A stretch of 64,000 bases of DNA from Polytrichum commune (Eukaryota; Streptophyta; Polytrichopsida; Polytrichales; Polytrichaceae): assembly GCA_950295325.1 (NCBI GenBank), contig OX485809.1, forward strand, positions 19,840,001 to 19,904,000, read 5' to 3'. The translations under genes were made by a program, and so were the position numbers. The notes beneath the pieces were generated by a model. It did not search any database, was not told where the DNA came from, and worked only from the letters and a program-made list of their open reading frames with translations. Every line of letters starts with the position of its first letter. The stretch's first letter is position 1. This document shows, piece by piece, positions 35,925 to 64,000 of this stretch.

Positions 35925-38900
35925 ATGGCTTCAAGTTTGGAACCTTCTCCCAATGGAGGACTGCATGTGATGATGGATGACTTGAAACTCACTGACCAAA
36001 CAACATTCCGGGCACAACAAGTGAACATCATTTTGGCATTGAGAGAGAGAGTTCAGAAACCTCCTATTGGTGACTTTAGAATGGAGGATTTAGTGTGGAC
36101 AAACCATGTCACTACTGGGAAAGGTTTACACAAAGGTTTAAAGTTGGCTGTGATTCTATGGGAAAGGTTGGACGATTTCATCTCTGGAGAGGAACATCAC
36201 CCTCTCTACCCGTACAGATTCAATCCCGAGGTCATTAGGCGAAACCTGCCTAACTCACTAAGATCACCTCGTGCACATAGTGCGGCACTTGTAGTAAGGT
36301 TCGATTTGTTGCTTTCAAACCTTCATTGTCTATGATTCTTTACTCTAATTTTTCTTCTGCACCGTTTTTTTTTATTACCATTCATTGATCCAACTATTTG
36401 CACATGTCTTTCATTGGCATTCATGCGTTATTCGTAAGGGGTTACATGCCCATCCATGTCATTCAGGGTTCATGACCCATCATTTGGTGTTTCCTTGTGT
36501 GAATCACAAACACCGATGCAATTTTGGTCCAGAGGACAAGTCTAATGTTGTGCCACATGACATGCAAGCCCTTCTCAGATCTACACAAAAACGAAGGAAA
36601 AAAAATGCACGATCAAAAGAAAAGAAAAAGGAAGAAGGTTGTACCTGAGTATGATTCATTCCCTGTGAACAAAGCAACTGCAGCCAAGGTTAAACGCATT
36701 GGCAAAACTGTTGTTGGTTGCTCCATTAAAAGGGGATGCCAAAGGTGTTTTGTTGCGAAAAAACCTTATCTTGATCCCTCCTTGTGCATGTTGGTTTATG
36801 AGAATACAATGCACCTCAATTCACGTGGTGAGCACTGCCATGGATCAATGGTTAGTGGATTCCGGTATGCGTTAGGTGCTGGCATCTCAGAGAGCATGAA
36901 GCACAAAATTGCTCAGATGCATGTTTTTGGGCTATCTCCTGCACAGATAATGCAACAACACACCAAGGAGGTAAGGGATTTGGCGCTTGCTAATGGCATT
37001 GTTACACGCGATACCTTCCTATTGCCATCAGATGTTAGGAACATTTGTAGTAAGCGTGCAGAGGAGCTATGGATGAAGGACCTTTCCGACCCAATCAGTG
37101 TCCGTATGTGGACGCTAGAACACCCTGACATCGTGTTCTTCTACCAAGAACACTCGTTGATTGACTTGAATTACTCCACTAAAAATGACGCGCCCTTCAC
37201 CCTTGGCATCCAAACCGAATGGCAATTGGAGATGATGGCAAAATTTGGTCACAACAGTGCACTCTCCATTGACGCAACTTTTGGGACTAGCCAAACATGG
37301 GTTTGACACATTTTGTGTTTGGGTTTTCATTACATGTTTGTTATTCAATGTCATGTCATGTCATTCCAGTTGTGAATATTTTCTTCCAACGAATGACTGA
37401 TTTTTTAGGTGAACTATTTGTTTGTGACAGTACCCATTATACACAGTTATAGTGTTTGACGATTGGAGGAACGGCATACCTGTTGCTTTTTTTGCAATTT
37501 CCCGTACGCGAGAGCATGACCTTATACCAGTCCTTCGATCGTTGCACAACATAGTTACAACACGCAGAGAGAATTGGTGTCCTTCGTCTATCATAGTGGA
37601 TAACGCACAAGCTGAAATCAATACATTAAGGTAACTTCGTGTTTTTTTCATATGTTGGTTATGCTTTTCTAGCACGTCCTTCATGCGTTTAGGTTCTTAT
37701 TGTTTCTTGCATGTGCAGGCTTGTGTGGCCAGACGCTAAGATCTTCCTATGTCTTTGGCATGTTCGGAAGGCTTGGGCAGAGAATGCTATAAAAAAAATC
37801 TCCACGGTCGGAGAACGTGCTACGGTTCTACAGATGGTTGGGGATATCATGTATGGAAAAGGGATTGACATTGACGATGACCCAGTTGATTGGGTTCTTC
37901 AGCAATTGGATAAGATCACCAACACGAGGCCACGATCAGCAGCATTCATGAAGTACATGAATGACACGTGGAGATCAAAGGCATCAACGTGGTGTATGGG
38001 AGCAAGGAGGATACCTCATGCTGGCCATAACACAAACGCTGTCATTGAGTCGTACCACTCGAACCTCAAAAACATCCTCAACTCTTCAAAATAGCGGTTC
38101 GTTGGAAGACGTATGGATTGGCTAATCTATCATCTTATTGGTGATGTGCTCACACATTATTGGTATGGAGTCCAATGCAAGGCTTTTGGATTTGTAAGGA
38201 ACAAGAAACACGAGGGCATTGTTTGTTCTGCGATAATACGTGCATCAACAATCCCTGATACAAATGTCATGATTTGCATGGAGGAAGACAAAGCATACGT
38301 TGGATCGGTGAATAATAGTCCTAAGGTGTGGACGATACACTCACCTGACTCTGAGTGGGCACAATGTGACTGTCCCATCGCACTCGAGGGCATGATGTGC
38401 AAGCATACGGTGAAGGTGTTTAAGATGCTCCATCCCAACATCTTGGACGGCATCATAGTTAGGGAGGCTGGCACTCTACATGGTGTTCAACGTGCAACTC
38501 CCATGGCCCAATGTTATTCCGCGCTCACACAGGTCCAGCGACACGATGAACATCACACACAGCCTGCCAGTGCAATAAACATCAATGAAGAACATGAAGT
38601 TGTGGATCTACAAGCTACAACCATCGGTTATATTGGTGGATATGACCATGCCACTTTCATAGAATCACAAGATTCAATTGAAATGGTCTCCCACAAATCA
38701 TTGTGCAATGTTTCCAACACTGTTGAACTCTTACAAGATGAGCCACTGGGCTCCCAAGTTGCGATGCAAACAATGATTTATAATGTATATACATCATTGG
38801 CAAGGAATGCAGAAACTTCCCCTGAACTTTATCCATACTTGCTCGCTGACTTGAAGCACATCCGAGGCAAGCAGACGGAGCTCATTGCACGTGGTGTAGC

Positions 38901-39015
38901 CCACTTGCATGCTACACCCACCACCTCATCATTCCCAGAAAGAGGCGGTGACAACTCTCTTAAGCGCCATCGGGACTTCATCGAGACACTTTACCCCAAC
39001 AAGAAGACAACCTAG
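35925..39015 (+). pseudogene. MULE transposase (MURA-like), split by a frameshift and a stop
   Basis: The likely exons are 35925-36293, 36439-37300, 37431-37630 and 37719-39015, with GT-AG junctions. Exon 2 carries a Cys/His-rich zinc-binding segment (GCSIKRGCQRC...GEHCHG, FLYWCH/WRKY-like). The DDE catalytic residues are visible as LSIDATFG, IIVDNAQAE and NAVIESYH. WPDAKIFLCLWHVRKAW is typical of the family. A C-terminal SWIM zinc finger reads CDCPIALEGMMCKH. The frame switches between about 36590 and 36640, near an A8 run, and an in-frame TAG lies at 38092-38094, between the catalytic Glu and SWIM regions. The catalytic triad itself looks intact. The protein would bind the terminal repeats and catalyse transposition in the nucleus. 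Confidence 0.88.
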
Positions 39016-39793: not shown

Positions 39794-42000
39794 TCATTTC
39801 TTGCTACGTTTTAGAGACCTATGGCTCCGTCGACTGGCGTATTGTCTTGTATTTGCATCAATGTCATTCTTATCGCGCATAACAACCCTCACAACCCAAT
39901 CCGAGCCCTTCCGCATTCCAGCATGAATAACATCAATCATAGCGTCGTTTATGATTGTACGCTGTCGGATAGCATCAGCCTTCTTGTATTCAAACACACA
40001 ACCCTGCAAAATGAAGGACACAATACATAAGTTATCGCACTCGCACGTATAAGGATACAAATGTCAATGAGGTGTTATTCTAAAGTTCTTCAATAATTAT
40101 TACGTAGTTCGGGTTATTCGATGCGAAGGGTCGCTACTAACCTCACGTAAGGTACGAGGTTTATGCCTCAATGCCTTTGTGAACTCCATTATATTCTTGA
40201 TAAGATAGTATCCACATGCCCATCCAAAGTTCAGCTGAGGTAAAATAGGTAATATCCAACAATCCGACGACAGTATCCTCTGCCACTTGAGCAACCTCTC
40301 TTCATAGCCTCTCCTCGCTGCCCACATTTTTACCAACTGTATGCGGATGGTGGTATCGGAGTGCAATCCAAAGCTTGACAAGGAATTCATGTGGAAAAAC
40401 ATGTGATCCCCTAAAATATAAACACTCCAGTGATTCCCGCAAGTATAAGGTACTATAAGGGTTGTCATGTCCAGCCCCGGCAACGCGGGATACTTTTTAT
40501 GCACAAACTTTATAAACACCTCGATATTCCCAGCCGGATGCAACTCAACAAAACTTTTTAAAATTTGTATAATGTACAAAAATATACATTGCAAGAATGA
40601 CATACAATAATACATGTTGATCTTACCATATTTCCATAGAGATATCATTGGCCGAATGCATTTCTAATTTTCTCCCCGATGATCCCGTCCTCCAACATCT
40701 TATACAAGTGTTGAATGCAAGATTGAGGGTCTTCAACGAGCTCCTTAGGCATCCATTGGACAGGCGTCTCGGTAATGAGAACGTATATAACACTTACTTT
40801 GATAAGCACGGACGAAGGATGAACATGATCAAGGTTCTCATCAGGAAACTTAAGCTTCGTTTTCCGCCACGCCCGTTCTTCAATCTCCTTATGGGTCAGA
40901 TTGCGTGTAGCTGGTGGCTGGATGACGTGTTTGGAAGATCGTGGATGTCTTACCACATGGAATGCCTCTTCATTAGATGTTGTCCCCAAACTAATACACT
41001 CCAACTCCTTGGAAATTAGTGGTTTAACTGTGGGAGTAGGGACATCGGAGGCTTCTCTTGGCAATTGTGTTTTAAACACGTCCTCGAAGCTTGCATCCAT
41101 GGGGTCTTCGCTGTGGCTATGTCCTTCAGAGTCATGTTCGTGTTCATGCTCTTCAAACTTCACACGTTGAACAATACCCTTCACCCGCCGCTTTGGTTTG
41201 CTATTGGATGGTGAGTTTGAAGGTTTCGGGAATGCCTTCACAGCCAGATTGCGGTGTTTCAGAGTGGGGAAGTTCAATGTCTCATGTCGCTTTTCTTTTG
41301 ACGGGTGCAGGCGGCTTGCAAACTATGCTAGACTAATAAACCTTCTCATATTTCTTGGCAATCATGTGAAGCTCTCCGTGGTTGCTTTTCTCCCACGTTG
41401 GGTACATCTTTAACGCTATAGACCCCTTGTATACCTTACACGGGTTAAACATCTTATGATAGGATGTCATGTTCTTCGATAAGTGTATTTCTTTGCAATG
41501 TTTGCAAGAGAATGGATGCCTGCCATTATCCAACCTTGTGGTAACCATTCTAGACTCCCAATAAGCTTCAACTGTGAGCGCTTCGTACTCTACTTCCAAA
41601 AAGAGTGCAACATAAGATTTTCTGTTGTGTGTCATAGTGCATCTATAGAGGCGTTGTCCTACGAACAACTATCACAACAACAAAACTATATGAGAAGACA
41701 ATATATCATAAAATATTTCAGCTACATTCAAACCCTCTTCAGCTGGACTGCCTTCGTATGCCATAAATCTGTCACTAAAGTTCTCACCCCTTCCTGCAAA
41801 CCAACGGTGCCTCTAACGACCATGTCCACAAACTTGGTATGCCCGAGGAGCTTGATCATTGGAGGATCCTCTACGACGTGCAAGCCGAGATCCAAAGCCT
41901 CTTGGACAAGCGTGGCAGTTATCCATGGCACTTGTGCTCCAACTACTGGCGCCATGTCATGCAGAATTCTGCATGACATCACCGAAATCACAACTGTCAA
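39794..42000 (-). pseudogene. Ulp1-like (C48) cysteine protease gene of the MULE, frameshifted
   Basis: Several exon-like blocks run on the minus strand: 41728-42000, 41333-41668, 40645-41330, 40100-40648 and 39794-40020. The C48 peptidase core lies in the 40100-40648 block. It has catalytic His in GNHWSVYIL, Gln in PQLNFGW and Cys in GWACGYYL. The usual catalytic Asp position reads Asn (HMNSL). A Cys/His cluster (FSCKHCKEIHLSKNMTSYHKM) in the 41333-41668 block resembles a BED-type DNA-binding finger. The first half is rich in Lys, Glu and His. Blocks 40645-41330 and 40100-40648 overlap in different frames near 40648, so a small indel is likely. Such genes are known passengers of Kaonashi-type MULEs, but their role in transposition is unclear. 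Confidence 0.78.
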
Positions 42001-48000: not shown

Positions 48001-51000
48001 ACCCCATAATCAAACGGATGTGGTAAATCATCTAAAAATGAAATAGCAATTGCACTTCCAAATATGACCAAATCACATATTGCATCTTAAGTTAATGTCA
48101 AAATATATCTTTAACAAATGACTTATTAGCACGTTTCGAGTGTGAATTAAATTTTTATTAATATATTCGGCATATAAGCTAGAATTTGTGTCATGCATAC
48201 CTAAGTTATGGGCCCCAAATTGTCAACCACTAATACTTCATTGATGTCCTTGGAGATTTTAAGCAAATATATTACCTTTGTGGCTTATGAGGCAATGTGA
48301 AAGACTGTAAATGAGGCATATTTATACACGTCCTTTAAATTGCAAATGAGGGTAAATTCTGGAATTGCGAGATGTTGCAATGCCAACTTGAAGTTACAAT
48401 TTTTTTTATAAAATAATCAACACAAACGCAACCGACTATTCAGCCTATTCACGGACTTGCGACCTCCGATCCTTTAAGCTGCGGGATTGCTTCTTCGCAA
48501 TACAACCATAGTAGCAATAAAAGAAAGAAGCATCGAAGTAGCAAACACATAGAAACTAAGCCAAGAATGAATACGAGGTTGGAAGGGATTGGCCACAAAA
48601 TTAGAAGCAACCACACGATTGGACAGAATACACACAGTTTTATGAAAATCAAGGAATCAGGGGATTGCAAAACTAAAAACTGCCATGGAATTAAAAAGAA
48701 GACATGCGGTGGTTGAATAGGAGTTTCTAAAAAAACTCATAAGGATAAAATCTAAAATAAAATAGTTTTTGACAAGACAATCAATTTTTGAAACCATCTC
48801 AACTATACCTTGAGGATTGGTAAATATATATTTTTATTAGTAAAATGTATTAGTAAATATACATTATATTGGAATTTGACATGTTTTATAAAATAAATTT
48901 AGAGATTGAAGGTTGTTTTTATCATCAGTAATTGCAAATAATTTAAATGTGAATGATATGAATGGAACTCTAAATATTGATACACCTTCAAAAGATCACT
49001 CCAACTTAATTGTCCCTTGCAATCAATAAATCTTACACTAAAAGTGAGAATAATTAAGATTGAAAGCTCTTACTTCAAAGTAATTATATTCAGTTCATAA
49101 GAAGAAATGGATGTTAACATTTTATTAAAGGCTTCACCAAGCACGTTAATGAATCACGATATTCCGTAAGTGAATATAAATTTATACAATATATCACCGT
49201 GATTTTTTTTATATAATTTTACAAACGAACAACCCACGGCATTCATAAGTAAATACGCAAATTAAAATGCTCACATAGTGGAAATCTATCCGAATTGGTT
49301 CCTTAATCAAGACGAAATATACTTACAAAAGGTAAAGGTAATGGACAGACCTTCGTCATTTTTTTTTTCACGCATTCCAAATCATAGGAATGCGAATAAC
49401 GACACAAAAATTATTCAATGTACACACCTAGAACGACAACTTTGAAGGACGAGAATACATAGAGACTATCGACAATCTGGATAATGACAAAATGCTAGGT
49501 ACGCAAGTGAGGTTGGATAACAAAAAAACGAGAGCTAAAAAATTATACAGAAGAAGTCGTAAGATACCGTGACGAGTTGGAATTAGTTGGGAAAATCGTC
49601 CTGAAATAATTTACGCACGACGGGGCCTACGCGCCGGAATGTTGGAAATGGATTTGAGCAGCGTGCTCAATTACACCGGAGTATTGTAGATAGGCTTTTA
49701 GATTGGGTTCCAATTAAGAAAACCACACAGGGAAGGCCAAATGAGTGTCAGGGGTTGCATCTAGGGATCACCATTGAGTTAATTGATAGATTACAAGAGA
49801 ATTAAGATGTATTTAGGACAACAAACACAGGGAAAAAGACTTCTAGAGTGAGTTTTAGGATTGATTTAATTAAGGTTGAGGGTCACTCACAGCAGTACAT
49901 GCAATTGATCAGTCACTCCCTCACAACCCACTCTCATCAGTAACATCACTCTTATAATGTGTTTTGCAATTCAGGGAGTCACAGCTCAGCCATAGACATT
50001 TAAGTACGCCATAGTCTCAGAAACCCAAGGCAAAAACTCCTTGAGGTGAACCATAGTCTCTTCAGTAAAGTAGCCAAGTATCAAAAGGCCACACCACAGT
50101 TAGTAAGGATATCATGTTCCCAATTGACTCCTCCTATGGTTAAGTGATGGATTTAATTAAATTAGATATAGACCACAGTAATGAATTATTTCCTTAGTCA
50201 GTTTTAGACTTAACACTATCTCAGTGGAATTGAATGCATTAAAATAAATTATTAAAATTAACAAAAGTCTAACGTGTGACAGTAACCTAGTGACCGAGGC
50301 TAGAACCGAACCGAACAGAGCCAGGACCGTAAGAGTCTAATCGCAGGACCATAGTCTACACAGCACGGCCATAGTCTAGTCACCAGTAACAGTCACAAGT
50401 AACCAGTGTCAAGTCACGTCTGAAAGGTAGGGCCATAGTCTGAGTAACCAGTAACCAGTAACCAGTAGCCAATCACCAGTAACCAGTCACCGTCTTGTTC
50501 TCGGACTTGGAGGTGGCTGCTTTTCCTTATATGCTTGCCTTCCTCTTCTCACCCAAACGATATGGGTTAAAGGGCAGCTTAGTTCCCTCTCGCGCGACTC
50601 CTTCTTCGTCTACACCCGGCTTCTTCTTTTTCTCCGCCAGGCTCCTTCCTTCACAGACTCCTCGCGATTGCTTCGACGTTCCTCAGCTCTGCATTCCTCA
50701 GATTGAATTTGGTAGAACTGGGACATAAAATTATCCTCGTGGAATTTCACATTCCTCATTCCTCACGAACATAAGTAATCTCAGGGAAATTGTGAGGTTT
50801 AAACTATTTCCCACAGTATTGCCTCAGACAATCTTCAGATAAGGATACATGGAATTAGCTCCTGTCACAAATGTTCAATTTCAACTTGCACCTTTATACA
50901 AATTTTCAAAGAGATGACAAAGTGTCTCTCCATCGTCCATTATGAAGTCACATTAGATAGATTAAAACTAATCCAACCATTTCACATGATCGAATCCACA

Positions 51001-53157
51001 CTGAAGAGATGAATTTCACATTCACCCGATTTTGACTTAATAAGTTTCCACTTTGGACTTACATTCCAATTACAGGTTTCACACCCCCAAATTTACTTGT
51101 CCCTCATCCAGGGTAAATGCACATCAATTCACAAGAGAGATTAATACTTCGATGTTCCGATATTAATTAATAAAACATGATGTGCACAATTCAAAGGCTT
51201 CACGCCAAAGGTGATTATCTCAGAGAGACTTTTAGCCACTGTAAATTATTTGTCGCTCCCTTTCTCGAGAGGACTCCTGTACTTTAGTCACGGTAGAACT
51301 TCACATTCAAACTCGGTGACTTATAAACTTTCACGATTAAGTTCGCACAACGAACAACTTACTTCTTTCACAGAAGGAAGATGACACAAATTTCCTGGAC
51401 TTTTCTCAAGCCAGAAAGAGACACTTTGAATCAACAAATTCTCAACGAACACAAGTACAATCGGATTCACTCTTCACACATAGAATTGGTAAAATAGCTT
51501 CACGCTGATATATTATGTAAAGTGAGATATACACACAAAAGGGCTTCACACCCAAGCTTAGGAGCGCTGAAAAGTATGCACCCACATGAGACTCTCTTCT
51601 CGAGAAGACTCCTCTTTCCCCTCTCCTTCTTCTTCTCTATACCCCCTGAGCTAACTTCCTTGTCTCTTGGGGCCAGATTTCATGAGGCTCTTCGACTTGG
51701 TCACATGTCTATTGCCCTGCCCAAAAGACTCTTCCTCTTGGGATCTGTTTCATATGAACTAAATGTTTCACCCTTAGCTCATTTCGGATAATTGGTCACT
51801 AATGACTTACTTTAACGTCCATTTCACATTCTGAGTGCCAATATGAATTCACATCCTATCAAAATTCTAAAATGACTATTCTGAGACCAAAAATTGTACC
51901 ACAAGTATTGAACACTGGTAGTCGCAACATTCAACGTGTTATTGGTAAAATTGATAATAAACCCGTAAAAACAACGAGGCAAAACCGATTTCAAAACTGC
52001 AGCAAAGGCTAGACTTGATATTCAAATATCAACACAGAGCGCGAAGGCACGATGTTGGGAGACTAATACGAAATAACCATCTAATCGAGATATGAGAAAT
52101 ATTGATCCTACTAAATTCCACAATTGTGGCTGCTTGAACACAAAAATGTGCACTATTATAACGAACTTGTAGATGTGTTGAACTGGAAATCCCCCAAAAA
52201 ACAACGTAAGGTTTTGATCTATGATAAAATAAGTGATAGAGATGATGTATGTAGCAATAAGGCAAATAATATGCGAGTTTTTAATCGAAGATGCAAACAA
52301 TTTGGGTGATTCATCAAATCATCAAAGCAATCAAAATTACAATCAAAATTTGTGAATTATGTGATATCAAATGCACAACATGAAGAAAAATAATTCAGAT
52401 GAGGCCCTGGGATGTAGACCCTGAAATGCCGATGGTTGAGACGCGAATACTTTAAATATTGCAAAAATATCGACTAAAATGTTTGCAGCAAAAAATGCAC
52501 AGTTTTTGAAATCTAATGCGAAGTGACATTAAAACTAACTCTAAGGAGAATTTCTCAAAGAGGCATCGGCAAGCCGTCAAAAAGGACCCGAGAGACGAAA
52601 CCCCCCTCCAGGCCATATTCAAAATTCCAAAGGCCATGAAATTTTTTTCATGGCCAAAAGATATTAAGACTTTGAAATGTATATTGGAAGAATCAAAGTT
52701 ATTTGGGTCCATCGTGGGATGCTAAAGTATGAATGATGAGTGATGAGTAGTATCAAGATGCCAAATTTAGATATATTGCACATGTTTAGGATATCCATTT
52801 TAAATTTGGGAACTTATTTAAAATTAAATTACATGTAAGTATGATTTTTTATGTATAACACAAAAGATGGGGGCCTATTATCATGTACACGTGAAAAATC
52901 TTTTAGTGAAATATTAAATCGTATTAGAATATTTTGCAAAAGTCTTTTGTGTAATGAAAATTGTTTCTGTACATATGATGTCATGTGTTGACAATTCAAA
53001 AACTTCTTGGTAAACACTACATTAGCATCATTATTCACGATCAACGACACCAATCAACTCCATAACTTGCATGAGTAAGTATATGTTGGAACGTGAATAA
53101 ATTTGTAGTTTGTTGTATTTCACTTTACATAGAAGTTTACATACGTAGTAAAGGTGT
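48001..53157. other. AT-rich, gene-free stretch
   Basis: No gene is recognised. A short plus-strand coding-looking remnant lies around 49430-49690. CCATAGTCT recurs near 50010-50440, and a degenerate GTAACCA repeat lies at about 50380-50490. These could be remains of LTR-type elements, but no end pair or coding motif was found. Confidence 0.4.
50380..50490. repeat. GTAACCA short tandem repeat
   Basis: GTAACCAGTAACCAGTAACC and variants recur here. The repeat has no coding context. Confidence 0.7.
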
Positions 53158-53984
53158 TGTCACGGTATGCGGCGTCGACATCCGCACCTTATCTGTTGGG
53201 TTTCATTCATCTAGATTTGGATGGATGAATCTAGATGTGGAGAGGAAGGCTCCTAAGTGAGGAGCCTCCTCCTTGGCTTGGCATTCTTGCCAAGTCAAGT
53301 TTTGTGAGTTAGTGTGTGGAGAGAGCTTGTGTGAGGTGTAGATTGCATGATTTTGCAATAAATCTTGAGTTATTCTCCCTCTACTTACACTCTTGGATTT
53401 TCCCTTGGTGGAGTGAGAGATAGCTTGACTAATTGTGCGCATTTGAAGAGAGATTTAGAGCTCTTATGAATGTTCTACTCTCTTCCTTCTCACTTGGCAA
53501 GAATTTTTTTATGTTTTTTTCTTCATCTTTGAGATGTAATGCGCAAGGGAGGGCGTGAAGACAAGGAGTGACGAAGTTGTGAAGTTCCAGAGCGAGAACA
53601 CCGCAGATTTGCGAAGCAAAATGAAGAATGCTTGCTTGTGAATGTCACTTCAAGGTGAATTGTGGTGATAAGGTGTTGAATTCTACACGGAATTTCTTAT
53701 CATGATTTGCCCACAAGCATGAATTTGTGAAGTGGGAGGTATAGGAGTGTTCTTGATTCTCAAAAGGGATCAAATTTTTGCAAAAATAGAAAAAATAAAT
53801 AAATAATTGTTGCAGCTGCTGCTGCTCCTGTCCGCTGCGGCTCATGTCTGCTGTTGTTCCTGTCGCTGCTGGCCGGCGGCGGCCTGCGGCTCTCGGCGTC
53901 GGCTACTGCCAGCACAGCCTGCGAAGCCAGCCAACAAGCCAGCCTCCCCCCCTGAGAAGCCAGCCCCCAGCAAGACAGAGATCC

Positions 53985-54070
53985 AGGGTTCGATTCCGGG
54001 GAAGCGGCCACCACATCCTAGGAAGGCAGCGAGCGCGCAAATTACCCAATCCCGACGCGGGGGGTAGTGA
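53985..54070 (+). rRNA. 18S rRNA-derived fragment
   Basis: The order CAGGGTTCGATTCCGG, GCGGCCACCACATCCTAGG, AAGGCAGC, GCGCGCAAATTACCCAATCC and GACGCGGGGGGTAGTGA follows the conserved 5' domain of eukaryotic 18S rRNA. About 12 bases are missing after CGATTCCGG and there are several substitutions. It is too short to be functional. Sequence outside this interval does not continue as 18S rRNA, so it is a captured or inserted fragment rather than part of an rDNA unit. Confidence 0.85.
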
Positions 54071-54629
54071 TCGGGAAGATATTTGTTTGGGCGTAATCGC
54101 GTTAGATGCGGGTGTTTGCAAGTGGTACCGGTTACGTATTAACACTCCTTCTTTATTTTATTTATTTATTTTATTTGTGTTTGTTTTTGTTTGTGTTTTT
54201 GTTTAATTAATCAATGCGTTAATGAATTAAAACCGGATTTAATTTAATTTAATTTAATTATTAATTAAATTAAATAGTTTATGTTTTCTTTCAACTTCTC
54301 ATTTTTTTCTCCTCTCTAAGAGGTTAATTTTTTGGGCTCATTAATCAAGGATACAAGGAAATAAACCTAAACTCTTATGAAATATTAAAAATACTTGGAA
54401 TTTCTTTTTAGGGGTTGTCTTGTGCGAAATTTCCGAGGGAAGTGTCATTGGGAATTGGATGGCATGTGGAATTTTCGTTCGGCCTAAAATAAATTGTTAT
54501 TAGGGTCGAATTGTGTTTATCAACACATATTCCTGGCATTGTTGTGAGGAGAGATTCTTAGGTAGTGGTGGGAAAAATGAGAGATGTACATTTTCTTTTC
54601 CTAAGCAACAGGGGCTCTTCGTTTTGACC

Positions 54630-54927
54630 ACCAACCGCAGGCGGGTGCCGGTTGGTCGCGGTCATTTTTCATTTTTGTTTAAGTGTTGTTTTGGGGAAGA
54701 AGATCCAGTGCTGTCATTGCATTGTTCCTTGTATTTTGTTGTGGTACCTTCCCCCGTGGCGGGCTGTTGTGTTGGAGTCTTCCAACATTGCCCCATTTTT
54801 GTGTTGTCATAGTTTGTGATAGGGTATTGTGGGGGTGAGGTCGGAGTAATGACCGACAAGACCCTTGTGTGTGCACCAAGTGGGCGGTGCTGTATTCCCT
54901 TATGGTGAGGCTGGATTGATGACCAGC
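54630..54927 (+). other. Four hairpins in the gypsy leader
   Basis: Perfect stems are ACCAACCG/CGGTTGGT (54630-54656), GTTGGA/TCCAAC with a 4-base loop (54771-54786), GTCGG/CCGAC (54840-54857) and GCTGG/CCAGC (54910-54927). The last two share the loop pattern A(G/T)T(A/G)ATGA and differ in the stem by paired changes. Location just before gag suggests dimerisation or packaging signals. Confidence 0.6.
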
Positions 54928-55029
54928 AGACCATAAGATTTGGTGGTGGTTGCAGGTGTAGGTTGCCTTTACCTTAATACCATATTAGTTTAGATTGTTG
55001 GCTCTAGTGACCAAATCCATTGCGGATTT

Positions 55030-56931
55030 ATGGTTACAACTCGGAGCCAACATTATCGTTCTCCGTCTCCGGCATCATCGCAAGGTCGATCTTCGGACCT
55101 TTTGGACAGTGAACCCGTGGTAGCACCTGACGAGGTTTTTCAGCCTACTTCGGCGTGGGGGACTGCCACTCGGTCTCACGTCCTTTGGGTGGGATCCTTT
55201 GACGAGATGGAGGAGGAGACGCGAGGTGGCATTCGGGACCGATTTTCTGGTCGAGCGGGGACCATTTCCCTGCAAGATTGGAAAATTCGGTTCAGAACAT
55301 GGATGAGGGAGAAGCGTCAACGAAATACCAATTTCAACGATTGGTATGCATTCGAGCTTTTGCCCCAACATTTGGAGCACGAAGCTCTTCAGACTTATGA
55401 GCAGTGGACGGAGGCTCATTGGATGGAGCTGCGCCAGGTTAAGCGGTACTGGGAGACTCGGGTTGAGTTGGTATCCGCATTGAAGGAAGGCGCAACCTCC
55501 AGTTTCATGGCCGTTCCGGATGTCAAGACGGAGGTATCGGAGGGAGGTTATGTGGTGGACGTGAAGGGAGCTCCTCCTTGTGAGCCGAGGGCTAAGGGTC
55601 CTGCTCCCACTGCGGCGAGTACGTCAAGCCCAGTTCTTCCACTCTCGCGTTATGCCATGGCCACCCAAGCGGCTTTAGCCTCTTTAGGGTCTCCGCCAGA
55701 TTTTGAGTCATTGCGGGCATTTGAGCTGCATCTACAGGGGGAGTACGGAGGCTTTCGTCGTGACCAGATGCAACGGATACAAGATTTCAGACGGGAGAAG
55801 GACGATACACCTCGTACCATGTATACGAGGTTGGCGAGGTTTGCCAGAGAATCTGGAGGTGTATTCGCGGAAAGTCAGTTGGTGAAGGTGTTTTTGTCAA
55901 AAATTGACAAACGTCTCCTTGACTTGGCGCTACCCAGGATCATCATGGAGTTTGGTGGTCGAGCGACACTCGCAGAGGCATTCGCCGTGGTGGAGCAGTG
56001 TGATCGTGCATTATGTCAGCACGATGCCACTGATTTGGTGTCCTTGCTAGTGGATTCTAGCAAATCCCGAAGAGTTCTGGTTGCGGCTGCGGGATTGGCG
56101 GAGGCCGAGGTAGACAAGACCATGTATTGTTGGTCTTCTAGGCAGGCTGGCCACGCTAAGAAGAATTGTCCTTCGAAGCAAAGGCAAGCCCAGACCGTCA
56201 CTACTCCGAAGCGGAAACCATTTGTTCCCGGTAAGGGCTCGGCGAAGGGGACGACGGGTAATCAGTTACCCAAGCAGTTGAAATGTTCCCATTGTGGGCG
56301 GAACAATCACGCGGTAGAGAACTGCTTTGCTTTCCATCCTCAGAAACGTCCTTCTTCCGACCGGGAGAAGACGTTGGAGACAAAGATTGGAGTCATGGAG
56401 GAGAGGTTCAAAAGCTTGGCGTCATCCGGCCAAATTCTGGCCTCACCGTCTTCCTCCGGAGCTCAGGCTAGTTCTTCCACTCCGGATTACTATATGTTCG
56501 GAGCCTTGGGCAAGGTGGTGAGTTCCGCAGCCGTAACACCTGTTCAAGCCCTGTCACAATCCATACCTTCGACGACAAATGAATATGTGGCAAACTCGCG
56601 AGCTCGGGACAATGCGCCTGCGGACCAAATTGGTCAAGCACGACTACCATTATCTTTTGGATTGGCCGATGCCGTCCAATCTGTCAGTGGTCGTCATCCG
56701 AACGATGAGGTTTCACATTCAGCGACCGATGTGGCGCACACGTTGGCATCCAAGGTGTTGCACACACCTTTGTTCACGGCCATGGATTGGCCAAAGTTCC
56801 AACCTGCTAAGGGTTTTCACTTAGAAGGTAGGATTTTGGAAGGGAAAGCATCCTTACCTTCTCTGACCGTGACTCAAGCCACTACGGACATCCCTGCTTC
56901 TGAAGATCCTAAGAATGTGGCCAAACGGTGA
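55030..56931 (+). CDS. gag: Gag polyprotein with two zinc knuckles
   Basis: The 633-codon frame is the nucleocapsid part of the retrotransposon. A retrotransposon Gag-like helical region lies at about residues 215-340 (including TMYTRLARFARESGG). It is followed by two CCHC positions. The first, residues 367-380, reads CWSSRQAGHAKKNC and lacks its second Cys. The second, 419-432, CSHCGRNNHAVENC, is complete. The C-terminal 200 residues are rich in Ser, Ala and Pro. The start is the first ATG after the structured leader. The TGA that ends it is in the same frame as protease, so it may be a mutated former CGA rather than the true gag end. Confidence 0.85.
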   Translation: MVTTRSQHYRSPSPASSQGRSSDLLDSEPVVAPDEVFQPTSAWGTATRSHVLWVGSFDEMEEETRGGIRDRFSGRAGTISLQDWKIRFRTWMREKRQRNTNFNDWYAFELLPQHLEHEALQTYEQWTEAHWMELRQVKRYWETRVELVSALKEGATSSFMAVPDVKTEVSEGGYVVDVKGAPPCEPRAKGPAPTAASTSSPVLPLSRYAMATQAALASLGSPPDFESLRAFELHLQGEYGGFRRDQMQRIQDFRREKDDTPRTMYTRLARFARESGGVFAESQLVKVFLSKIDKRLLDLALPRIIMEFGGRATLAEAFAVVEQCDRALCQHDATDLVSLLVDSSKSRRVLVAAAGLAEAEVDKTMYCWSSRQAGHAKKNCPSKQRQAQTVTTPKRKPFVPGKGSAKGTTGNQLPKQLKCSHCGRNNHAVENCFAFHPQKRPSSDREKTLETKIGVMEERFKSLASSGQILASPSSSGAQASSSTPDYYMFGALGKVVSSAAVTPVQALSQSIPSTTNEYVANSRARDNAPADQIGQARLPLSFGLADAVQSVSGRHPNDEVSHSATDVAHTLASKVLHTPLFTAMDWPKFQPAKGFHLEGRILEGKASLPSLTVTQATTDIPASEDPKNVAKR

Positions 56932-57495
56932 GCGAGACTTGCGGAAGAGACCATTGCGTCTTTTGACGCACACGCCTCAGATGACGAGGCACCGACCACG
57001 TTTTATGACTCACCAGTATCCGCGGGTGCAGCTTATCTGTCTAATGTCGCTGCTAGACCGGTCCGCAAGCGCCGCGGCATTCGACCCGGCGTTGTGTGTA
57101 TGGTGAATGATACTGGAATTTTGGTGGTCAGTCGCACTGGGAGCAATGCTACTCGCGTTGCTCCCCGTTGTGTGATGTTGGATTCAGGGGCACAGCCAGT
57201 TATGATCGGCAAGAGGCTTGCCCAAGAGTTGAGGTTGACGGCCGAGGATTTGGCTCCCTGTCCATTCACCATTGTCACATCCATTGGTCACGTGGAGCGG
57301 ACCATGGGTTATACTCGAGAGCCATTACAGCTTAGCTTCCGAGTGAAGCCTGGAGATTCACCCGCACCTCTTCTTCTTAGGTGTGTGGTGACGGATGCGA
57401 CCAACTATGACATTTTAGTTGGTCAGCAAGCACTTTACTCTCTTGGTTTTGATTTGGACAACTGGACTGAGGAGGCGTGGATTCGACCATGTTAG
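56932..57495 (+). CDS. Aspartic protease (retropepsin) domain
   Basis: This continues the Gag frame directly. The catalytic motif is LDSGAQPVMIG, with the Asp codon at 57181-57183. The second hydrophobic strand with the conserved glycine is probably YDILVGQQALYSLGF. Retropepsin works as a dimer to mature Gag and Pol. A TAG at 57493-57495 interrupts the frame, followed by about 113 codons of unassigned linker (57496-57834) in the same frame. Confidence 0.82.
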   Translation, partial: ARLAEETIASFDAHASDDEAPTTFYDSPVSAGAAYLSNVAARPVRKRRGIRPGVVCMVNDTGILVVSRTGSNATRVAPRCVMLDSGAQPVMIGKRLAQELRLTAEDLAPCPFTIVTSIGHVERTMGYTREPLQLSFRVKPGDSPAPLLLRCVVTDATNYDILVGQQALYSLGFDLDNWTEEAWIRPC

Positions 57496-57837
57496 TCGGC
57501 TGAGGATGGCCGTAGGGAACTTATTCCCGTGGCTTTCGCGGCGGCCGCGACCATAGCACCATTATCTATGGTTTTTGGATGTGGTGCTATGGTGGACACA
57601 TTGCCTTATGGTTCCGCATTGTTGGAGGAGTCATTGGCATTTATGGGGAGTACAGACGATCAACGGGATATGGCACCTAAGGGTGCATTGGTGCGCCATC
57701 CCAAGGATCCCCTTCCTCATTGGCGTGATTCCACCGAGCTATTTCGGAGGTGCGAGGATATTGTTCACTCTCTCACTCCTAGGACACCGGTCATACCGGG
57801 TATCCTCTCGGCATTGGCACATCCCATTTTATGGTAG
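57496..57837 (+). CDS. Linker between protease and methyltransferase
   Basis: This in-frame segment of about 113 codons lies between the two stops at 57493 and 57835. It has a hydrophobic start (PVAFAAAATIAPLSMVFG) and a mixed, partly charged second half (HPKDPLPHWRDSTELFRRC). No family is recognised. It could be an N-terminal part of the methyltransferase or a spacer. Confidence 0.55.
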   Translation, partial: SAEDGRRELIPVAFAAAATIAPLSMVFGCGAMVDTLPYGSALLEESLAFMGSTDDQRDMAPKGALVRHPKDPLPHWRDSTELFRRCEDIVHSLTPRTPVIPGILSALAHPILW

Positions 57838-59103
57838 CCGCCAGACGTGGGGATTACTTTGGTGGAACTGTTTGGGGGCATCGGCACAAGCTTAGCGGCC
57901 GTATTGGAGGCAGGCCTTACGGTCAGACGGTATGTTTATGTGGACAACTCTCCAGTGTCCACCCGTGTGGCTCGTCACCATATTCACCAGTTGATGGTAT
58001 TGTACCCCCATCAGTTACACCCAACTGCCATTCATGGGTGTTTTTCACGTATCCCTCGTGATGTTACACTCATCAGTGAGGCTGACTTACGACACTTGGG
58101 CCCGGTGGATATGGTGATGGCGGGATGGCCATGCCAAGGCTACTCACGTGCTGGAGCAGGCCGAGGCTTAGAGGATCCCAGGTCTAGCCTTTTCTGGGAC
58201 CTCATCCGGCTTATGCAGTGGTGGTTTACCCACCAACCTTCCCCTCCAGGGTATATCTTTGAAAATGTATCTTTGTTGGGAGACTCTCGGGACAAGGTGT
58301 TGGAAGGCGATTATTATATTCGTCAACACCTTGGAGATCCCATTTTTGTGGATGCTGCGAGCATTGGTTCTTATGCCCACCGACCTCGGTGGATTTGGAC
58401 CAACCTCGCACCGTCATCTACTTTAGCTGCAGCATTTTCTGCAGTGCCTCCACCTTTTGATGAAAAGGTGGATGACATCTTGGATCCAAACCGGACCTCT
58501 TTGCCGGTTGTTCGAGATGATTTACCCCTGTTGGCATTGGTCAACAAAATGGGGGCACCACGGCGGGCCTTTCCCACATTTATGACGTTTCCACAGTCAT
58601 TCGCTTTCCGCAATAAGGGGCCGGGTATGGTGTGGGATGTTTACACCAAAACCCACACCGCACCATTGGCTGACGAACGGGAGCGTGCCATGGGATTCCG
58701 CACTGGCACCACCGCAGCTCTCAGCCTTTCTGAGGGCCAACAACGCTTCGTGTTGGGCCAAGCTATGGATCTTTATACTATGGTGTGGACTGTTGCTTTA
58801 TGCCTTTCATTGCAAAAGCATCGTGGTGACCAGTGGTTGTCTCTGGGGGCAGAGGACTTTGGTCAACAGCGGTCCACACCCATGGAAGAGGGAATTCACG
58901 CCATGGTTGAAGAAGCCGAACGAATTTTTCAATTCGAGCAGCATGTGATGGAGGAGCTTCGAGCTCAACATTTTTACACTGCTTCGGTTTCTTCGCCTCC
59001 GGTGGTGGCTTCATCATCACATATTGGTGGTGATGAAGAAATGTCAGACTCTAGTACTAGCACCGAGACTGGGGGCATGGTTAATGCCCCCTCCTCTCAT
59101 TAG
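57838..59103 (+). CDS. Cytosine-5 DNA methyltransferase domain inside gypsy pol
   Basis: A C5-MTase transfers methyl from S-adenosylmethionine to cytosine in DNA. From 57838 the frame is open for 421 codons (first Met at 57847). Motifs occur in canonical order. Motif I is LVELFGGIGTSLAAVLEAG (SAM binding, FGGIG at 57871). Motif II-like is YVYVDNSPVS. Motif IV is AGWPCQGYSRAG with catalytic Cys codon 58132-58134. Motif VI is YIFENV. Motif VIII is AHRPRWIWTNL. Motif IX/X-like are ERERAMGF and LSEGQQRFVLGQAMDL. An acidic, Ser-rich tail follows. There is no N-terminal chromatin domain. The PCQ motif differs from the PCN of DRM/DNMT3 enzymes, although motif VIII looks DNMT3-like. It is flanked in frame by protease and RT, so it is an element gene, not a host gene hit by insertion. 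Confidence 0.92.
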   Translation, partial: PPDVGITLVELFGGIGTSLAAVLEAGLTVRRYVYVDNSPVSTRVARHHIHQLMVLYPHQLHPTAIHGCFSRIPRDVTLISEADLRHLGPVDMVMAGWPCQGYSRAGAGRGLEDPRSSLFWDLIRLMQWWFTHQPSPPGYIFENVSLLGDSRDKVLEGDYYIRQHLGDPIFVDAASIGSYAHRPRWIWTNLAPSSTLAAAFSAVPPPFDEKVDDILDPNRTSLPVVRDDLPLLALVNKMGAPRRAFPTFMTFPQSFAFRNKGPGMVWDVYTKTHTAPLADERERAMGFRTGTTAALSLSEGQQRFVLGQAMDLYTMVWTVALCLSLQKHRGDQWLSLGAEDFGQQRSTPMEEGIHAMVEEAERIFQFEQHVMEELRAQHFYTASVSSPPVVASSSHIGGDEEMSDSSTSTETGGMVNAPSSH

Positions 59104-61332
59104 CAATTAGAGTATGTGCCAGCATCAGGTGGTTCTCCTTTGGTGGAGAGGGAGACTACAGAGTTTGATGATTGGCCACTTGAATTAGGCCCTCGTCTCA
59201 CTGGTGCTGAGGCACGGAAGGTACGAGCATTTATTCGCTCGTACCGTAGATGTTTTGCTTTTAGCCTTCAGGATCTTGAAGGTTATAAAGGAAAACCCAT
59301 CCACATTCAGTTGGAGGACGACCATCCCATTTTTCGGAGACCTTACAGGCTCAGTGTTTCCGAGCGGATTGGCGTTTAAGCTCGTTGTCGAGAGCTCTTG
59401 GCAGCATGGCTAATCGAACTTTGCAACGGGGAATATGCTTGTGCTATGGTTATGCCATCGAAGAAGGATATCTTTGGCAATTGGACGGAGAAGCGGATGT
59501 GTGGGGATTACCGTCCAGTTAATCGGAAGACCAAGTCGGATCGATATCCCATGCCAGTCCCGGAGGAGTTGTTCGATGCCCTCGGATTTGCTCGAGTCTT
59601 TAGCACGTTGGACTTGAGATCCGGCTATCACCAACTCCCATTACTTGTGGGAGACCGAGTGAAAACCGCATTCTGGGGAGTTGATCAAGATGGAAAGGAT
59701 CAACTTTACCATTGGAAGTTTCTTCCATTTGGCCTGAAGAATGCACCCGCTGAGTTTCAGCGGGTGATGGATCAGGTTCTCTCTGGCTTGCCCTTTGCTC
59801 GGTGTTACATAGACGATGTAATCATCTTCAGCACAACACCACAGGAGCATGTGAGGCATCTGCAAGCCGTTTTTGAACAGTTGCAGCGGTGGGGATTGCG
59901 CTTGCACCACGGCAAATGCAAGTTTTTCTATGACCGGTTGGCATATTTGGGGCATATGATTGTTCCAGGAGGTCTTGGGGTACAACAAGCTAAGGTGGAC
60001 GCATTGCAGAAGATTCCAGCACCGGTAGATGTGCCAAGACTTCGTGCTTTGTTGGGCTTGGCGAATTACTATCGGCGATTCGTCAAGGACTTTAGCTTGA
60101 TTGCCAAGCCACTCACCATTCTCACGAGCAAGGACCAACCTTGGACTTGGGGTCGTGAGCAGCAACAGGCATTTGAGACATTGAAGCAAAAACTGGGTAC
60201 GGCTCCAGTGCTTCGACGTCCAGATGTCTCCAAATCTTTCCAGTTGCATACAGACTGGAGCTCATTGGGTTTGGGAGCAGTTCTCACTCAGAAGGATGAT
60301 TTTAGTCGGGAGTATGTTGTTGCTTACGCTTCGCGAAGCAATAACACGGCGGAGTCTAATTATTCATCCTACGAGGGAGAAGCATTGGCGGCGGTATGGG
60401 CTATTGCCCATTTTCGGCCGTATCTTTATGGTCAGCACTTTACTTTAGTGACTGACCATCAGCTGTTACGATGGCTCATGGAGTCGGATAAGCTTACTGG
60501 CAAGCTTGCCAAGTGGGCTTTATCGCTCCAGGAGTATGACTTTGAGGTGGTACACCGTGCTGGGATTACCAACATGGATGCAGATAGACTCTCACGCAAT
60601 CCAAGTCCTTCAGATGAGGACTTGACCGGGGCCAGATGGTATGGAGATTGTGATCGAAAGGTGGTTTCAGGTTGGCACGCGGCTGTCTACCTTACTTTAT
60701 TTTCTGGTGCATCTGTTGAGATTCCGATACAGGGTTCGGATGATGAGACTGATCGGCCTCAAGCTATTGTGGATATATGGGAGGATCTTCCCGTATTGCA
60801 TAAGCTTCAACATGGTACCTTTCCTTTGTCTATTTCGGCAATGGAAAGGGATAGGATTGGACATCGAATAACAAGGTTCCGTTGGGAGAACGGTTTGTTA
60901 TTTCGATTGTGGCCGGATGGGACAAGGCGTATTGTTCCTAGGCCGGATCAGAGGGCCTCCTTGGTGCGACAAGTGCACGAGGAACTTGGCCATTTTGGCA
61001 TACGCATAACACATTCGATGTTGTGTGGCCAATATTGGCGGACTGGCATATATCAACAGGTGGCTGCTTATGTCGGGAGGTGTGAAGTTTGTGACCGGGT
61101 CAGGTCTAGCTTTAACACCTTGTCACCTCAGTTACAGCCCTTACCTATCATGGGATTGGGCTACCGTTGGTTGCTAGACTTTGCGGGACCGTTGGTTGTC
61201 ACGCCACGTGGAGCAAAGTACGTGTTGGTGATGGTGGAGCATTTTAGCAAGTGGATTGAGCTTGTTGTTTTACCCCAAAACTTTGCAGAGTTGGCCGCGG
61301 CCGCCTTTTTGGATCGTGTGTTGGCACGGTAA
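59104..61332 (+). pseudogene. pol: Reverse transcriptase, RNase H and truncated integrase
   Basis: The frame continues after the methyltransferase. The N-terminal RT part is at 59104-59376, then a TAA at 59377, then 644 open codons. RT shows CGDYRPVNRKT, FSTLDLRSGYHQ, LPFGLKNAPAEFQRVMD and the catalytic YIDD at 59806-59817. RNase H shows LHTDWS, YEGEALAAVWA and VTDHQLLRW. Integrase begins with an HHCC finger (HEELGHFG...CEVCDRV) and the first core Asp in WLLDFAGPL. It stops at LAR before the second Asp and the Glu of the D,D-35-E core. RT and RNase H catalytic residues are all present. Loss of integrase and of the 3' LTR makes the copy immobile. Confidence 0.92.
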
Positions 61333-64000
61333 GCCCGACCTCTCAGTGTCCTTGTTTTCTACACAATGACAAGTAATCTATGCCACTAACAGATTATTGA
61401 TGCACATTGTAAGTTCAGATTGCATTCCCCAGCTTGAAACATTGGGCTCACAAGTTTTTGGTTTTTGGATTATCTCATTCAACAAAGATACTTATGCACT
61501 ACCCATGTAAATTTCCCCACTGAGCACTTTGGAACAGGACCCACATTCACAGGCAAGTCAATCTCCCTGGAGAATGACATTGATTCACGCCGCACCAAAA
61601 TTCATGCTAGTAATGCCTGCGACCCTCCCCTTAGATACGCCAGCAAGCAACACCCATAACCTCTGGTGTTGGGGAAGTCGGTTGCTATCCTACTCCATCA
61701 GACCCAACAAATCGGCAATCCTGGTGCGAGATGTTGGTTGGTGGGGTTCCATTGGCGATGGTTGGTTGTATATTATCTTCCCGCGCTACACCCTCCCTCG
61801 AAAACCGACAGTAGTCTCCTTCTCCTTACATATTTGTCTCCTCCATGGCCGAGTTTCGTGGCTGCCCATCGACAACACTCACTCACACCCTTGCATCCAC
61901 CCCACCCCTGGTCTACTTACCTTTCAGATTGCTCCGATCATAGCCTCCTCCTCATCGCACTCTCCAGCAGCTTGCCTACCTTATCTTCGTTGCAACCCAA
62001 TCTCAGTCGTGTCTGCTTGTTGAATTGCATGCACTAGAAGTCACATGTCTGCAAGCTTGGAGCCTATCGGCTACCATTCTGCGGCGGTTGTCTCCTCATG
62101 GCCACAAAATTTTCTTCACCTCCGAAGCTACTCATCAGGACCCAGTCGATCAAGCAGCTACGTTGCCCCTTGGTGAACAACCCCCGATCGGCACCACCAC
62201 TTACCACCTTTCTCCAGGAGACGTGATCCATTGGCCAGCCCCGTCAGTGGCATTGGTTGATTTATTTTCCAGAGAAAAACTAAATGTTCTATCTATCGTC
62301 TACCTATCCGACTCTCTCCCTCTCCCTCTATCGTCCTTCTCAACATCAGCTTAACCTTGTTGCCAGATTGTCAACGGATAAGGCGATTTACCCTCCTCGA
62401 ACTCTCATTCCAACCTCCTCTAGGTCTTTCCGCCTCCTGCGTCTATAGCATCCTCAAGAGGCATTGTTGTGAGTTTGGGCGAGTCGTACCCGTGTTCAAC
62501 ACTTAATCCATGCCCCTCTTGAATGCAAGCTCCGTCCTCCACCTCTCAACACCCTCTGCTCCATTCCGGCAGGGCTTCCGCGTCCTGTCCAGAGTCTTCC
62601 CCTCCCCTCTGCATACTGAGATCCCTATTCCTTCCTCCCGTGACCCCTCCAACTTTCTTCCTTTTTTTTGCATTACCCGGCATCTTCGGGCCGCCTGAAG
62701 AAAAAAAATGGGTTTTTTTTCCTTCCTTATTGGCCCTCTCTTCCGTCTTCCGCTCCCCTTTCCCGCACTTGGCAATTGTGCTCACCTTTTTATTCTAATT
62801 TACTTCATTTTCTCTCTTTTTAAGGGCAAGGTTCACCTCTTCGGCTTGCCTTTTTACTTCCCCATGCTTACCTTAAGTTTAATTACTCTGTGAGCACATT
62901 TTCAGGCTCACACTTGCATACGCTTCACCAACTCCACTCCACTACCTACAAGGTTGAAGTTGAATGAATATACATAATTTTAGCATTGCAAATGGCATAT
63001 TGTACATTCTTGAGGCACACAAAAATAACATCTATGTCAAATGAAGTTGGCAAATAATTTATTTCACATTTTTCATCATTGTCAAACTCTATAGATGTGA
63101 CATTTGACTATCACAATGAATGCAACGCTATTATGTCTATGTTTAGCATATTAATAGATTATTTTAGATACCTTACAAAGATGAATATGATAGCAAAGAA
63201 ATTGCAAATGATTGCCACAACTCGAGTTGATGGCAAATTCAAAGTGTGTTGGTTGTGTTGCTGGAATTCTAGTCGCATGTATCGAGAATCCCTCTGTTTG
63301 CCAATTGGAGATATAAAAAGAACCATGCTAAAAACTTGGTTTGCAAAGGCCTTTGTTTGGGCTTATATATTGTTCACCGCCAAGGTTATAGTCATTATGT
63401 GTGTGTGTGTGTGTGTTTTAATAATTATATACAATTTTCCCAATTTTAATTTTGATCTTGGTCTCATAGAAAGAGCATACAACATGCATTCAATATTTGA
63501 GTATGGCCGTATTTGATATGGGTCCAATAATATTGAATGAAGATTTCCTCTCTACATCAGATTATGTTGAGAAGTGGCCAAGTCTTGTATGGATGAACGG
63601 GTTCCATATCATGTTTAGGGATAGACATGATTCAATAAGTTGTCCAAACTCGAGGAATATGTTGGTAGCAAGATTATCATTAAGTGTATTATATACATGT
63701 ACTTATCATTGTGTTCAATTTACTATCATTTTGGTTTAATGAATATTGTTATTAATACAACTTCAATGCAAATTAATATACTTATGTGAATTTCTTGAGG
63801 TACTTGAAGAGGGAGCTCCTCGCTAATAATTCAATAGTGGTGAACAACCTTAGTTCATATTTGATGGCTCGGACTAGATTAGGTAAATTGCATTCTATCA
63901 TTACATGCACAATTGAAGACATGGGAGGATTCCACTTTACATAATTCCCCATGGTTTCTTGAGTGCCCACTAACATTTTATCACGTGGAAGAGAATGATG
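61333..64000. other. Gene-free stretch beyond the broken retrotransposon
   Basis: Sequence after 61332 no longer reads as integrase. Plus-strand frames (61529-62023, 61666-62037 and 63079-63516) carry no recognised motif and overlap in different frames. A (GT)n tract lies at about 63397-63417. No LTR matching the upstream leader is found. Confidence 0.45.

Follow-up and report, generated by a model that had tools for sequence, protein, structure and literature searches.

The DNA analysed here, referred to below as the window, is a stretch of 64,000 nucleotides from the genome of Polytrichum commune. On its forward strand, an open frame of 421 aa that occupies exactly positions 57838–59103 matches the Pfam family DNA_methylase (PF00145) with an E-value of 3.5e-13; the methyltransferase domain (DNMT) itself spans 57838–59100. 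It lies in one common frame with gag (54994–56931), an aspartic protease (56932–57495) and the reverse transcriptase (RT), RNase H and integrase (59380–61332), as the preliminary description of the locus had stated in placing a C5 methyltransferase between the protease and the RT of a gypsy-type element. Both gag (as part of ORF1, 55030–56931) and protease, which form the upstream part of ORF1 on the same strand, are interrupted by stops in this copy. The protease carries the motif LDSGAQ, and its matches to PF13975 and PF13650 (E ∼0.002) remain below the cut-off, while that of a related protein, P0015, clears the cut-off of PF13650. ORF2 (59110–61332, forward strand) encodes RT (PF00078, 4.3e-29), RNase H (PF17917, 8.4e-36), the H2C2 part of the integrase (PF17921, 2.5e-12) and the start of the DDE core. 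The left end of the element is formed by a 334-bp repeat, A1 (53158–53491, forward strand), which begins with TGTC and is 96.1% identical to the A repeat of L043, an undecayed copy. Elsewhere in the window, two frames without any Pfam family over the cut-off recall, by eye, a Mutator-like transposase with a SWIM-type zinc motif (36503–39015, forward strand) and an Ulp1-like protease (40100–41322, reverse strand).

Among the classes of C5 methyltransferases, it is DNMT3 that the predicted domain resembles most. DNMT3A and DNMT3B were the nearest solved structures in a single-sequence search (DNMT3A, 5.7e-10). When a profile built from 29 sequences (the window domain and 28 relatives) was searched against the solved structures, DNMT3A again ranked first (2.8e-24), with lower scores for chain 4onj (6.7e-15; labelled 'DNA methyltransferase' and presumably a DRM), DRM2-labelled chains (9.3e-12), HhaI (5.4e-9) and DNMT2 (1.5e-6). 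Chains labelled DNMT1, MET1 or CMT were absent from the 56 profile hits with E-values up to 0.01. In the alignment of the window domain with its relatives, motifs I, IV (PC) and VI (ENV) and the C-terminal motifs follow the normal, non-rearranged order, and in the profile alignment the N-terminal, central and C-terminal blocks succeed one another as in DNMT3A, although the C-terminal block is weak by itself. Loss of motifs across the family, which would have spoken against a maintained enzyme, was not observed: of the 30 best-scoring among 99 scored copies, 29 have the cysteine of motif IV, and 29 likewise have the Glu-Asn of motif VI. At the level of sequence, the domain is thus confirmed as an open and motif-complete DNMT3-type C5-cytosine methyltransferase.

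The copy present in the window is decayed and truncated. Its similarity to L043 stops at 61328, within the integrase; ORF2 contains a single in-frame lesion stop, the integrase is shortened, and the PHD finger and the repeats B1-A2-B2 found in other copies are absent. In L043, which has open frames, ORF1 (1366 aa) encodes Gag, protease and DNMT and is terminated by TAG, and ORF2 comes next in the same frame. The gag of L043 gives a weak match to a zinc knuckle (E 0.0038), below the cut-off. Its integrase is of the DDE type (rve, 1.2e-14), and no phage-integrase family (tyrosine recombinase) was matched by Pfam in ORF1 and ORF2 of L043 or in the end of ORF2 of L044. The Pfam families matched in the window and in L043 stand in the order typical of Ty3/gypsy elements, namely protease, RT, RNase H and DDE integrase. 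The identical LTRs at both insertion ends that are also expected of that group were not found, the left end carrying A only and the right end B-A-B; therefore, we refer to the element as 'gypsy-type' and not as a plain member of Ty3/gypsy.

The host genome (408 Mb in 64 contigs, of which six large ones measure 42–78 Mb) was searched with the window DNMT, and at least 99 places were scored (634 candidates) at 74–100% identity. A second subfamily, whose DNMT core is ∼63–65% identical to that of the first, accounts for at least 97 further places (594 candidates) at 90–100% identity to its own query. Given these identity ranges, no place is expected in both lists, and the genome therefore contains at least 196 DNMT copies belonging to two subfamilies. 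The suggestion that the element might keep itself low-copy is not supported by these numbers. The second subfamily, represented here by L051 (G000:C1:13368330-13369700), looks young; a number of its copies have open frames of 1386 aa. Bacterial contamination was rejected as a source of the element, since the window is part of a contig of 42 Mb and the element was located on all seven contigs C1–C7. A search with the RT gave 102 scored hits (3159 candidates). A DNMT stands within 6 kb upstream of 88 of them among the matches listed (78, and 10 more that came from the subfamily-2 search), and the other 14 may lack it; copies without the domain, had they prevailed, would have marked the window copy as an exception. 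Chance insertion of a gene fragment into one copy is likewise rejected by the size of the two subfamilies and by gag-protease relatives carrying PF00145.

The preliminary description noted stops in the rest of the pol frame. The one at 59101–59103 is not decay; the other stops are lesions of the window copy. The sequence TAG-CAA-TTA (59101–59109, forward strand) ends ORF1 in all 30 best-scoring of the 99 scored subfamily-1 copies, at an identical offset in 29 and shifted by 3 in one, and decay was rejected as its explanation; the one subfamily-2 copy that was read has TAG-CAA-TCA at the end of the DNMT. UAG-CAR-YYA is described as the consensus for type I readthrough (PMC3542737), and the in-frame ORF that this type of recoding serves is found directly downstream. 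Readthrough past the UAG is likely, judging from this context. As the DNMT lies on the Gag side of the type I context, it would be made together with Gag as part of a Gag-protease-DNMT3 product, with RT, RNase H, integrase and PHD finger following as a minor readthrough product; the DNMT would then be produced, and presumably packaged, at the level of Gag and above that of RT. The placement of the domain inside pol thus needs to be amended: it is located between protease and RT in the same frame, but it belongs with Gag, ahead of a stop that is likely read through, and not to a continuous pol. The stop is not universal, because in the relative P0083 (350 aa) the C-terminal part of the DNMT runs, by eye, into RT-like sequence with no stop between them.

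The C-terminal end of ORF2, behind the integrase, is a PHD finger (PF00628; 3.5e-12 and 4.6e-12 in two copies), located for example at L044:3-416 and L042:3-416. It was found in all eight fetched copies that extend that far, with the full Cys/His pattern in five and lesions in L036, L040 and L042. The PHD stretch is matched at 150 or more scored places in the genome (530 candidates), subfamily-2 copies included. No chromodomain was found by Pfam in the ORF2 pieces scanned (L043 and L044). The nearest solved structures identified by sequence search include the fingers of CHD4, PHF12, KDM5-type proteins and UHRF1, several of which read unmodified H3.

Selection on the DNMT was estimated from copies of the genome. 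Among 14 stop-free copies, the median dN/dS (NG86) was 0.31 for DNMT, 0.11 for RT and 0.28 for the protease region; with all 30 copies the corresponding medians were 0.38, 0.15 and 0.41. Within the subfamily, constraint on the DNMT is thus weaker than on RT and similar to that on the protease region. Between subfamilies, comparison of the window and 11 copies with L051 gave pN of 0.22–0.24 against pS of 0.71–0.77 for the DNMT core, and omega of 0.09–0.12 in the six of 12 comparisons with finite dS, dS being saturated in the other six. The core is therefore under strong purifying selection between subfamilies, and none of these ratios comes near to 1, the value that had been named as speaking against a maintained function. 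The C-terminal tail shows little constraint (31–36% identity between subfamilies, pN 0.41–0.45 versus pS 0.56–0.64). A captured passenger domain without function would agree with the weaker constraint relative to RT among copies of the genome, but the strong constraint between subfamilies, the occurrence of the domain in liverworts and streptophyte algae and its presence in 10 of 12 gag-protease relatives make this explanation very improbable.

A search with the window DNMT as a single sequence retrieved 86 related proteins at E-values up to 1e-3, and the profile search 95 at 1e-5 (7999 scored candidates in each). The named plant hosts are Calypogeia fissa, Marchantia polymorpha (P0100 and P0101), Closterium and Klebsormidium nitens. 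One relative with 65% identity, P0004, is filed under a bacterial metagenome-assembled genome (Candidatus Obscuribacterales), probably because plant DNA was assigned to the bacterial bin. A scan with a single protein of genome contigs and viral contigs, from which the own genome was possibly left out, gave no relative. Residues 1–950 of L043 ORF1, covering gag and protease, retrieved 12 proteins (7999 candidates scored), 10 of which contain PF00145 in the same protein. Six of these 10 were read: five stop shortly past the DNMT like the window frame, and P0091 ends in different residues. The other two of the 12 lack PF00145 and break off where the DNMT would start or earlier, which may be due to decay or to true absence. 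Other positions of the domain also exist, as P0059 and P0066 have the DNMT followed by integrase, and in P0082 it stands, by eye, after the apparent end of RNase H. In a tree of 36 rows, these three proteins split from 16 protease-side rows with support of 92/87; the tree is midpoint-rooted, 17 of its rows are unlabelled and some long branches are unsure, and the protease-side label of L051 derives from its 1386-aa frame and the RT hits downstream.

The repeats of the element are unusual. Ten copies were fetched with their surroundings; A1 is present in all of them, and the order A1-genes-B1-A2-B2 (A, 334 bp; B, ∼106 bp) in seven. B1, A2 and B2 are missing from L033 and L049, L035 has B1 but no A2, and the B2 of L037 is interrupted. 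A1 and A2 are 97.9–100% identical in all seven pairs measured, and apart from them no element repeats in the ten stretches flank the genes as a pair. Within the window, no ordinary LTR pair was detected at 50000–64000. To the left of A1, no 14-mer of B was found in the 0.9–2.9 kb of flank in any of the ten copies. The insertions end in TGTC...GACA and are bordered by an exact 4-bp target duplication in six out of six evaluable copies, and the B|A junction reads GACA-GC-TGTC in all seven copies having A2. Tandem arrays with units of ∼64 bp and ∼160–180 bp occur near L033/L034 and L041/L042, and the arrays on either side of L041 match one another as well.

Directly after A1 lies a putative primer-binding site, ACTTGGCAAGAAT (53492–53504, forward strand), which is complementary over 13 nt to a site within A1, ATTCTTGCCAAGT (53283–53295, forward strand), the putative self-primer. 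In 11 out of 11 copies, 12–16 nt at the edge of A1 are complementary to the site at A 123–126, and the longest match among 2288 other positions was 11 nt. A purine tract, GAGGGGGGG, ends two bases 5' of B1 in eight of eight copies. Reverse transcription would start by self-priming just downstream of A1, and plus-strand synthesis at the polypurine tract 5' of B1, yielding linear DNA; on the basis of these two sites the LTR, as defined by reverse transcription, would be B-GC-A.

Joining of the two ends of such a cDNA would give a two-LTR circle with an A|B junction, that is, the junction found between A2 and B2 of integrated copies. A pattern requiring 26 fixed bases, by which mutated copies are missed and which gave 0 matches when reversed, retrieved 51 A2|B2 junctions. 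Of these, 29 match exactly, 17 show substitutions but no change in length, and five differ in length. The five are all different, comprising inserts of the polypurine tract TGAGGGGGGGCA and of ACT, with which the primer site begins, and changes of +1, +7 and −4 (the last in L037). L031 has +3 at its A|B junction, and at G000:C5:14942818-14942853 AC replaces TG, possibly as primer-site bases in place of the first bases of B or as two substitutions. The B|A junction is constant in length in 37 of 37 cases, with letters displayed for five. The difference in the frequency of length variants between the two junctions has a Fisher p of 0.07, and the weight of the case for a circle therefore lies in the content of the inserts.

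The integrase would open this circle within one LTR, at the palindrome GACA-GC-TGTC. Opening of a single B|A palindrome in which the GC is lost reproduces the integrated form exactly, namely the order A1-genes-B1-A2-B2, bounded by TGTC...GACA and by a target duplication of 4 bp. Cutting of a linear cDNA at both internal palindromes was rejected, as it predicts A-genes-B only, and A2 is accompanied by B2 in the seven copies having A2. That an end-joined two-LTR circle opened at the palindrome is the substrate of integration appears a strong inference, short of proof. The two-LTR circle was once debated as a route of retroviral integration and then abandoned, and the present layout would be an apparent case of insertion from such a circle by a DDE integrase. 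The same order of repeats might instead arise if closure of the circle were templated by internal B1-A2, with A2-B2 copied from RNA as in DIRS/PAT-type elements and no joining of cDNA ends. This layout is the one termed DIRS-like in the SymbioDIRS and KnitGypsy elements (PMC5890265), and the constant length of B|A in 37 of 37 and the single length of A|B in 46 of 51 junctions suit a templated process. Against it, no two of the five A|B length variants are alike, and bases of the polypurine tract and of the primer site occur among them, which fresh end-joining would produce and a templated junction would not; TG...CA ends, 4-bp duplications and a DDE integrase are not traits of DIRS elements, insertion of which is described as making no duplications (PMC3266345). 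We consider templated closure unlikely and prefer end-joining.

Transposons are silenced by host methylation, and it is a standing puzzle that selection should nevertheless preserve a methyltransferase in such an element. Most likely, the DNMT would methylate the element's own unintegrated DNA, a weaker claim than that of the circle: acting on the free circular DNA before integration, it would let this DNA pass as host DNA or be shielded, and passing as host DNA, shielding and preset chromatin may all be considered as purposes of the putative methylation. By analogy, methyltransferases are found in other elements with a circular stage or split repeats, DIRS1 (PMC3266345), SymbioDIRS and KnitGypsy (PMC5890265), which points to an association of methyltransferases with elements that have free circular DNA; the SymbioLINE elements are an exception (PMC5890265). 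Taken together, a gypsy-type element of the composition Gag-protease-DNMT3, UAG, RT-RNase H-integrase-PHD that integrates from a circle and whose DNMT acts on the free circle is a probable, if far from certain, reading of these sequences. The points that count against it are the dN/dS of the DNMT above that of RT within the genome and the little-constrained C-terminal tail, the equal rise of CG and CHG transitions described below, explicable by host enzymes alone, the 14 RT hits with no listed DNMT, the Fisher p of 0.07 for the junction length variants, P0083 with its uninterrupted frame, and the null result for KnitGypsy in yeast. We offer more tentatively, as something that may well need revision, the fuller proposal of an element that packages DNMT3 with Gag, methylates its circle and reads target chromatin with the PHD finger, thus combining writer and reader in one.

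Transition rates were 4.6% at CG, 4.5% at CHG and 2.8% at CHH, and 1.7% at A/T. The raised CG and CHG values fit methylated, deaminating copies and a plant-like pattern, whichever enzyme set the marks, and they suggest that the copies are or were methylated, as would be expected if the DNMT acted on the host genome, either damping transcription of its own element for heritability or marking neighbouring elements, with less damage to the host. This option was raised by de Mendoza et al. (PMC5890265). Host enzymes could, however, methylate the copies anyway, and with numerous copies and A1/A2 97.9–100% identical in seven of seven the damping is not strong; we regard such a role as improbable. 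Slightly less probable still is methylation of RNA by the DNMT, or a role for it as a particle component that binds nucleic acids, DNA catalysis not being its main use. Its position at the end of the Gag frame would suit a particle protein, and RNA methylation has been suggested for SymbioLINE (PMC5890265), but the catalytic motifs are kept and the domain is nearest to the DNA-acting DNMT3, which scores far above DNMT2. Action on the free circle remains our preferred reading. High copy number, several young insertions and the relatives in Marchantia make the system testable.

The parallel in a charophyte alga to which the preliminary description had pointed is borne out. KnitGypsy-Dnmt3 of K. 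nitens, a gypsy element that has DIRS-like repeats and encodes a DNMT3, was published in 2018 (de Mendoza et al., PMC5890265); therefore, elements of this kind are already known and that of Polytrichum is a variant. According to the published description, the two share a non-rearranged, intronless DNMT3-type domain under purifying selection in an LTR/gypsy element, as well as DIRS-like repeats of the arrangement A-coding-B-A-B combined with gypsy domains (PMC5890265). A K. nitens protein, P0081, is related to the window DNMT (36% identity over 241 aligned columns). When expressed in yeast, the KnitGypsy DNMT gave no detectable methylation, a result its authors deem inconclusive (PMC5890265). 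The Polytrichum element differs in the Gag-side frame with its likely readthrough UAG, the PHD finger behind the integrase, the high copy number and a repeat layout for which an origin is proposed. The words 'readthrough', 'read-through', 'circular' and 'PHD' are absent from the main text of PMC5890265, whose figures and supplement may differ, and relative to that main text three points appear to be new: the stop in its readthrough context, the PHD finger behind the integrase and a circle as the explanation of the repeats. Our literature search listed no publication on gypsy elements with a DNMT from land plants, and 'methyltransferase' and 'PHD' are absent from the main text of a 2019 survey of plant LTR elements (PMC6317226).

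SymbioDIRS-Dnmt3 and DIRS1 share the methyltransferase with the Polytrichum element, and together with PAT they share split or unusual repeats (PMC5890265, PMC3266345); a circular stage has been described for DIRS1 (PMC3266345). SymbioDIRS and DIRS1/PAT, however, use a tyrosine recombinase, whereas the element described here has a DDE integrase, and DIRS1 insertion is reported to leave no target duplications (PMC3266345), in contrast to the 4-bp duplications in six of six evaluable Polytrichum copies. Self-primed reverse transcription is shared with Tf1/Sushi and the Tcn1 chromoviruses (PMC6317226), from which the Polytrichum element is distinguished by a PHD finger behind the integrase, the scanned parts of ORF2 having given no match to a chromodomain. 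The unnamed relatives P0059, P0066 and P0082 carry a homologous DNMT in a gypsy-type pol, at other sites in pol. Finally, the circle route proposed for Polytrichum could also explain the DIRS-like repeats of the Klebsormidium element.
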